The notes beneath the pieces were generated by a model, which saw only the letters and a program-made list of their open reading frames with translations, did no database searches and was not told the DNA's origin. The translations under genes and the position numbers were made by a program. From Candidatus Firestoneibacteriota bacterium (GTDB taxonomy: Bacteria; Oederibacteriota; D2-FULL-39-29; CAIOVX01), in assembly GCA_903861835.1 (NCBI GenBank), contig CAIOVX010000087.1, positions 1 through 64,000 on the forward strand: a stretch of DNA of 64,000 bases. Reading direction: 5' to 3'. Shown piece after piece: positions 35,855-37,084 of the stretch (position 1 is its first letter; every line of letters begins with the position of its first letter).

Positions 35855-37084
35855 TTAAAATAGTTCCAGCTGAGCCTGCCGCGCAAGCTCTCCTTCGTCA
35901 AAAAGCACTATCTTCCCGGAAACACCGTCATAACCGGGATAGATCCGCAGATCTCCCTTCCTGGACTTTATGATGCCTTCCGCAACTGCCAAAGGGGCTA
36001 TCCTTCGGACCTCCTGCTCAGGCAAGTCCAGAAGCAGGTCAAACTCGCTGCCGGCTTTTTCAACAAGCCGAAGATAGGCATCCCTGACCCGCTGCGAGCC
36101 CGAGTCCGTGTTGAGGCAGGAAGCCAGTATTTCATCTAGAGGCATAACATTCCTGAAGGGCAGGTATTTCCCGTAGGCCTCATTCTCTGTCCGGTCCGCC
36201 AGTTCTTCTACCCGCTGGAGCACTCCCGGTTTTACGGGGCCGCGGCAAACCGTGCAGTTATGTCCGGTACTCCTGCTTTCAAGCGGCGTGTAATAAGTTC
36301 CGCATTCCTTGTGACCGCTCAGGTAATGCTTTCCTTCCTCCGGGAAAAACTCAATGGTATAGAGCAGTTTATCCCGGTGCTTGTACTGCAAGGCGTTCTT
36401 TATCTCAAAATAGTGAAGCGCAGTGTCAAAGACACAGGCTTCCCTGCCGATAGTCCACGGTGAATGCGCGTTAGAGCCGGAAATCATTGTAACACGGTCA
36501 AGGCAGGAGAGCCTCGCGCCCATTTTCGGGTCGGCGGAAAGCCCGGTTTCCGCGGCGAAAATATATTTTGTGTATTGCCCGAAGCATTCCTCCAAAGAAC
36601 CATACCCTCCGCTGCCGAGAACCGAGAAGCCCGGAGCAAAGATATGCGATGGCACGACAAAACAATCCATAGAGACATCGCAGACTATCCTTACGAGTTC
36701 GGAAGCTTCTAGATTCAGTAGAGGGCGCCCTCCGGTGTTAAGATCGCCGTATTTAGAAAGAACCTTATTGATCCGCTCGATATGCTCAAAACCCGGGGAA
36801 AATATCTGCAACTGTATCTTTTTACTTCCGTTCATCCCGCCGTAAACGCAGTTTACTTCACCCGACAGGATGAAATGCGAGTCGTTAAACTTAAAAAGGC
36901 CGTCGCCGAGCGGTTTAAGCTTTCTTTTGAGTTCGGAGAGCCAGAGAGGATGTGTGATGTCCCCCGCGGAAAGAAGATCAAGACCTTTGTATTGCGCCCA
37001 CTTAGAGAGGGATTCAAGGTCCATGTCGCGGGAAGCGCCAAGACTATGCTTGCTGTGTATATGAAAATCAGCCCTAAATTTCAT
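35855..37084 (-). CDS. Endonuclease Q-like PHP-domain nuclease
   Basis: The 409-residue protein opens with a PHP-domain metal motif (ADFHIHSKHS) and contains DITHPLWLSEL, VVPSHIFAP and ISGSNAHSPW. Its C-terminal half has TIEFFPEEGKHYLSGHKECG and then HNCTVCRGPVKPGVLQRVEE, the zinc-binding region of EndoQ, which nicks 5' of deaminated bases (hypoxanthine, uracil, xanthine) and abasic sites. EndoQ is known from archaea and scattered bacteria. The last residues RQAQLELF fit the bacterial sliding-clamp motif QLxLF, where archaeal EndoQ has a PCNA-binding box. It leads the DUF4912/GH57 operon, without an obvious functional link. Confidence 0.87.
   Translation of the reverse strand: MKFRADFHIHSKHSLGASRDMDLESLSKWAQYKGLDLLSAGDITHPLWLSELKRKLKPLGDGLFKFNDSHFILSGEVNCVYGGMNGSKKIQLQIFSPGFEHIERINKVLSKYGDLNTGGRPLLNLEASELVRIVCDVSMDCFVVPSHIFAPGFSVLGSGGYGSLEECFGQYTKYIFAAETGLSADPKMGARLSCLDRVTMISGSNAHSPWTIGREACVFDTALHYFEIKNALQYKHRDKLLYTIEFFPEEGKHYLSGHKECGTYYTPLESRSTGHNCTVCRGPVKPGVLQRVEELADRTENEAYGKYLPFRNVMPLDEILASCLNTDSGSQRVRDAYLRLVEKAGSEFDLLLDLPEQEVRRIAPLAVAEGIIKSRKGDLRIYPGYDGVSGKIVLFDEGELARQAQLELF

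Follow-up and report, generated by a model that had tools for sequence, protein, structure and literature searches.

The open reading frame between 35,855 bp and 37,084 bp of the window, as we call the whole 64,000-nucleotide stretch of DNA that was analysed, lies on the minus strand, starts with ATG and, its stop codon being included in these coordinates, encodes a 409 amino acid EndoQ homologue with a PHP domain, a zinc ribbon, a C-terminal helical part and a clamp tail. A phmmer search of the PDB matched it to the PfuEndoQ structures 7k30 and 5zb8 (E ~1e-45), and alignments and the structure match covered its segment between 36,419 bp and 37,084 bp (minus strand). An AlphaFold2 model made with 68 homologues had a mean pLDDT of 94.5; the best PDB matches of the predicted fold were 5zb8 and 7k30 (TM-score 0.87–0.88, 30% identity), and the predicted structure contained the PHP domain, the zinc ribbon and the C-terminal helical part that make up this fold in EndoQ. 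The zinc ribbon (36,245 bp–36,313 bp, minus strand) reads H258-x2-C261 ... C277-x2-C280, with C261, C277 and C280 at least 97% conserved; that of PfuEndoQ has four Cys (PMC4357722). The homologue scored 139 bits against the NCBIfam model TIGR00375, below the cut-off of 326.6. As none of the 384 sampled bacterial genomes reached this cut-off, it marks archaeal-type members of the family. The source genome (2.18 Mb, 98% complete) contained a single EndoQ copy.

Analysis of the region between 33,108 bp and 38,814 bp revealed EndoQ to have a DUF1015 protein on one side and, on the other, a DUF4912 protein and then a GH57 branching enzyme, neighbours that show no obvious connection with DNA repair. 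The gene for the DUF4912/Glucodextran_B protein (34,680 bp–35,846 bp, minus strand) starts 8 bases past the EndoQ stop codon and is probably co-transcribed with EndoQ, although no functional link between the two is known. The order DUF1015-EndoQ-DUF4912-GH57 was preserved in two other species of the genus, and searches of 72,556 plasmid and 50,697 phage records gave no EndoQ relatives; recent mobile acquisition of EndoQ was therefore rejected. The dN/dS of EndoQ was 0.05–0.08 in the three closest species, comparisons with the window gene being close to saturation at synonymous sites, showing that the gene is under strong purifying selection in this genus. Together with the conserved gene order, this indicates that it is not decaying.

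Translation of the open reading frame confirmed that the protein ends ...ELARQAQLELF, so that its last five residues (405–409; 35,858 bp–35,872 bp, minus strand) are, as an earlier note had proposed, a bacterial beta-clamp-binding motif at the extreme C-terminus. QLELF conforms to the QLxLF type of this motif, defined as Q-aliphatic-x-[L/M]-[F/L] in a 2024 review (PMC11139829), and is conserved in the genus and across bacteria beyond chance. Among the 224 open reading frames of at least 60 amino acids in the window, a match to Q[LIVM]x[LM][FL] within the final 14 residues was unique to EndoQ. The same QLELF ending was found in the three other species of the genus (81–83% identity), where its codons differed synonymously only (for example CAG CTG GAA CTA TTT versus CAA CTT GAG TTG TTT) and the residues just upstream varied (RQA, RYS, KYS). 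EndoQs of relatives in the same phylum ended in QMTMF, QMKLF, QLDLF, QLSLI and similar sequences. In the AlphaFold2 model the tail was accessible and flexible, as it follows a short helix (residues 397–404) at the extreme C-terminus and its last 9 residues had a mean pLDDT of ~59. The tail was also considered as a PIP box and rejected as such: Q403xxL406xxF409 is a chance partial fit, Q403 gives way to Tyr elsewhere in the genus and there is no PCNA in the genome.

A survey of C-termini extended the tail well beyond this genus. The ending recurred in a set of 80 named genome loci that included one archaeal locus and drew on Omnitrophota, Patescibacteria, Nitrospirota, Aminicenantes, Myxococcota, Elusimicrobiota and other groups; it was preceded by a linker that varied in both length and sequence. 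With expected counts obtained by shuffling the last 20 residues, and bearing in mind that related sequences are not independent trials, the canonical Q[LIVM]x[LM][FL] was present within the last 14 residues of 98 of the 177 bacterial EndoQ homologues (0.4 expected) and the loose form QxxLF in 136 of them (8.1 expected). Among 89 archaeal homologues the canonical motif was absent and the loose form occurred in 18. The plain PIP box Qxx[LIM]xx[FYW] showed the reverse distribution, with 59/89 archaeal (0.4 expected) and 11/177 bacterial EndoQs, which bears out the proposal that a PCNA box stands where the archaeal protein ends. Several archaeal EndoQs (loci L116–L126 and L132) ended in TLDxW or ETLDAYF, which resembles a PIP box that lacks its initial Gln. 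A looser PIP expression, used for tree labels, was widened after inspection of the data; the counts given as evidence use the fixed expressions only. In a family-spread bacterial sample chosen blind to the tail, the canonical motif was found in 38 of 72 EndoQs (0.2 expected). Clamp-type tails were present in only two of 543 neighbouring open reading frames, one of which encoded a UvrD helicase beside EndoQ. A docking tail is thus general in bacterial EndoQ and matched to the host's type of clamp, with approximately 20–25% of bacterial EndoQs having no recognisable clamp tail. The tail is conserved in relatives, and the docking tag of one repair family tracks the host clamp across two domains of life. 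EndoQ itself was present in 115 of the 384 sampled genomes and, outside the window's phylum, in ~87 of ~339 (about a quarter), contradicting the earlier description of it as rare in bacteria.

A maximum-likelihood tree of 79 EndoQ cores was built with the tails left out; it is unrooted and its bootstrap did not converge. The bacterial EndoQs formed two separate groups that were united in none of 200 bootstrap trees. The large group was placed among DPANN-type archaeal sequences with PIP boxes, and the small group (L209–L212) adjoined euryarchaeal EndoQs; two of its four members ended in RQLSLF and two had no tail. As both groups include clamp tails, the tail most likely arose in bacteria at least twice, which on present data would make it a clear case of refitting to an unrelated replication machine. 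The suggestion that an archaeal-type enzyme had been adapted to the bacterial clamp therefore held in part: the tail follows the type of clamp in the host, but the direction of transfer between domains is not shown by an unrooted tree with an unconverged bootstrap. In another family of the same order, EndoQ was absent from five of five sampled genomes (G004–G008); the window's genus has kept the gene, with an altered site.

The source genome encodes one DnaN, and no PCNA was found in it. In the peptide pocket of this DnaN, 13 of 18 positions (position list from PMC11139829) were identical to Escherichia coli; the five that differed were R246Q, V247I, V360I, V344A and M364V. As judged from its sequence, the cognate DnaN has an intact pocket for a QLxLF peptide, and the EndoQ homologue very probably binds it through QLELF. 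This would resemble the clamp-binding proteins Pol II, Pol IV and Pol III alpha (PMC11139829), which also have a flexible C-terminal QLxLF tail of the highest-affinity class; the bodies of those proteins are polymerases, whereas that of the window protein has the fold of a PHP-family lesion endonuclease. The C-terminal PIP box of Thermococcus kodakarensis EndoQ binds PCNA1 with a KD of 55 nM (PMC4858679), and the Pyrococcus abyssi homologue Pab0431 was reported in 2013 to co-precipitate with PCNA (PMC3820547). These archaeal proteins share the fold and the place of the tail with the window protein but pair a PIP box (Qxxhxxaa) with PCNA and have an intact SDAH motif and catalytic His, as opposed to QLxLF and DnaN. 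That bacterial EndoQ homologues carry C-terminal beta-clamp consensus sequences was remarked by Shiraishi et al. in 2016 (PMC4858679), so the idea has been published in outline. Their remark concerned a few homologues, without a survey, and is extended here by motif counts across the two domains and by the two-group tree; the window's genus also differs from those homologues in its substituted active site. In the literature searched, no statement of actual DnaN binding by a bacterial EndoQ was found. The EndoQ of Bacillus pumilus is active according to 2017 work, as cited in PMC6202378.

The earlier note had taken the window protein to be an ordinary EndoQ repair enzyme. Comparison with 271 other homologues did not agree with this, as the genus lacks two otherwise invariant active-site residues. 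Among columns at least 97% conserved, the window protein deviated at three (H91Q, D205N and Y253H). Residue 91 (codon CAG, 36,812 bp–36,814 bp, minus strand) is Gln where 270 of the 271 have His, and residue 205, in the SDAH motif (codon AAC, 36,470 bp–36,472 bp, minus strand), is Asn where 270 of the 271 have Asp. The protein consequently lacks the full conserved PHP active-site set. Seven other active-site residues (H8, H10, D42, E76, H147, E179 and H207) were retained. Both H91Q and D205N were present in all four species of the genus, as were changes at ~15 otherwise conserved positions, several of them near the active site; besides H91Q and D205N, the genus shares D118G, T150A, W152G, S159G and N203G. 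This replacement at the level of a genus is new here.

We infer that residues 91 and 205 correspond to PHP metal-ligand positions 6 and 8. When EndoQ was aligned by profile to E. coli YcdX to locate the nine PHP ligands, the match past motif I was too weak, so this assignment is based on PMC4357722 and PMC3666897 together with agreement in order and spacing. The discoverers of EndoQ called the SDAH motif the most conserved and listed the conserved His H84 of the Pfu enzyme as likely important (PMC4357722). Loss at position 6 is among the commonest in variant PHP domains (PMC3666897). In the PolC of Geobacillus kaustophilus, Asn at position 8 is the sole change, and the domain binds metals yet is inactive (PMC3666897); the nuclease activities of PolX are impaired by PHP-ligand substitutions (PMC6616362). 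Wild-type PfuEndoQ (5zb8) has SDAH, whereas the 7k30–7k33 constructs have SNAH and, according to its entry description, 7k30 contains a dU substrate, so the SNAH protein is presumably an engineered inactive form. D205N matches the change in PfuEndoQ of the substrate-bound crystals and in the inactive PolC PHP domain. Variant PHP domains of DNA polymerase III alpha and PolC (PMC3666897, PMC3919608) likewise keep the scaffold and lose metal ligands, but they have a structural role inside a polymerase, whereas in the window protein, a repair protein that stands alone, the PHP domain is the catalytic one.

These observations incline us to the view that the locus encodes a clamp-tethered EndoQ-fold protein which, in this genus, would bind deaminated or abasic lesions but not cut them. 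The flexible QLELF tail, equivalent in bacteria to the tail by which archaeal EndoQ binds PCNA, would dock in the hydrophobic peptide pocket of the cell's own DnaN and so place the protein at DNA being replicated or repaired. There the clamp-bound protein, to judge from its family, would scan for deaminated or abasic sites. In most bacteria EndoQ would next nick the DNA 5′ to the lesion; in the window's genus, with Gln91, Asn205 and their remodelled neighbours, the lesion would be recognised and held at the clamp and incised poorly or not at all. A held lesion may then pass to UDG or other enzymes; the source genome encodes one UDG-superfamily protein and no EndoV was found in it. The substitutions and their PfuEndoQ and PolC parallels suggest that incision has probably been lost or strongly reduced in this genus. 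A lesion-holding role is put forward tentatively, and it is a rather speculative proposal that a naturally incision-dead, clamp-tethered EndoQ might serve to read deaminated or abasic DNA, handing the site to a UDG-like enzyme or controlling repair at the fork. Such a reader would keep hold of the base once flipped out, which is what PfuEndoQ in its SNAH form seems to do in crystals. EndoQ binding to dI-DNA has been reported to depend on Mg2+ (PMC4357722), so the loss of ligands might also weaken lesion binding. The genus can be regarded as a natural experiment in which the docking of EndoQ on the clamp is separated from its cutting.

An altered site under purifying selection may mean no cutting, cutting with altered metal use or another activity. 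Were Gln91 and Asn205 still to coordinate metal, the protein would be an ordinary active EndoQ on the clamp that nicks on the 5′ side of deaminated bases and may prefer a different metal. We consider this unlikely, although it would agree with the intact zinc ribbon and other ligands, with the strong selection and with the reported binding of metal by Asn at PHP position 8 (PMC3666897), and an active single copy in a genome without EndoV would offer the obvious route for hypoxanthine. The seven retained residues, superfluous in a simply dead site, also count against the incision-dead reading. Against an active enzyme stand the retention of H91 and D205 each in 270 of 271 homologues, the accompanying changes at T150, W152, N203 and D118, and the inactivity of the PolC with Asn at position 8. 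Conversion of the PHP site to a different phosphoesterase chemistry, in a protein that retained its clamp tail, appears improbable: the ~15 changes shared by four species do resemble re-specialisation more than decay, but the neighbouring genes suggest no substrate and the predicted fold is unchanged.

A decaying pseudogene would account for the loss of two invariant residues, yet the gene is full-length in four species with a dN/dS of 0.05–0.08, conserved order and a confidently predicted fold, and this explanation, barely credible, was rejected. Short motifs do arise by chance, and QLELF could be such a match or serve a partner other than DnaN. This is very improbable given two tails in 543 neighbouring open reading frames against 98 in 177 bacterial EndoQs, the tail in two separate bacterial groups, purely synonymous change within the genus and archaea that lack the motif and have a PIP box in its place; a chance origin was rejected on these motif and neighbour counts and on the scan of the window's open reading frames. 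Along with the altered active site of the genus, the fusions described below are the parts worth following.

The survey also revealed 33 loci (L103, L105, L107, L108, L021, L029, L030 and L239–L264) in which EndoQ and a UvrD/Rep-type helicase form one fusion protein, approximately one third of the EndoQ-bearing genomes in the broad bacterial sample. In each of the 33 the helicase part matched that of L105 or L107, the former being UvrD by Pfam. In these fusions the clamp motif was relocated to the helicase end: the canonical motif ended 19 of 28 complete fusions and a 5- or 6-residue form 22 of 28 (at most 0.3 expected). A QxxLF-type motif also directly followed the EndoQ part in 13 of 33 (2.6 expected). 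No description of an EndoQ-UvrD fusion was found in the literature searched, and such fusions with the motif at their end are new here. The position of the motif lends independent support to the tail as a putative working docking site, and the fusions link EndoQ to strand unwinding at the clamp. They suggest how bacteria might complete EndoQ-initiated repair by nicking, unwinding and resynthesis at the clamp. One divergent fusion of 1325 amino acids (L264, from G468, in a family that also includes G604) had H91R, D205N and H207Y and represents a lineage in which the EndoQ site has been altered independently; its linker contained QQDLF and QLMLF, and its tail no motif. In a Nitrospirota locus (L101, 5583 bp–8816 bp), a separate EndoQ ending in QGTLF and a UvrD helicase ending in PQMGLF were separated by 9 bases; the pair is unfused here, and both proteins have a clamp-like tail.
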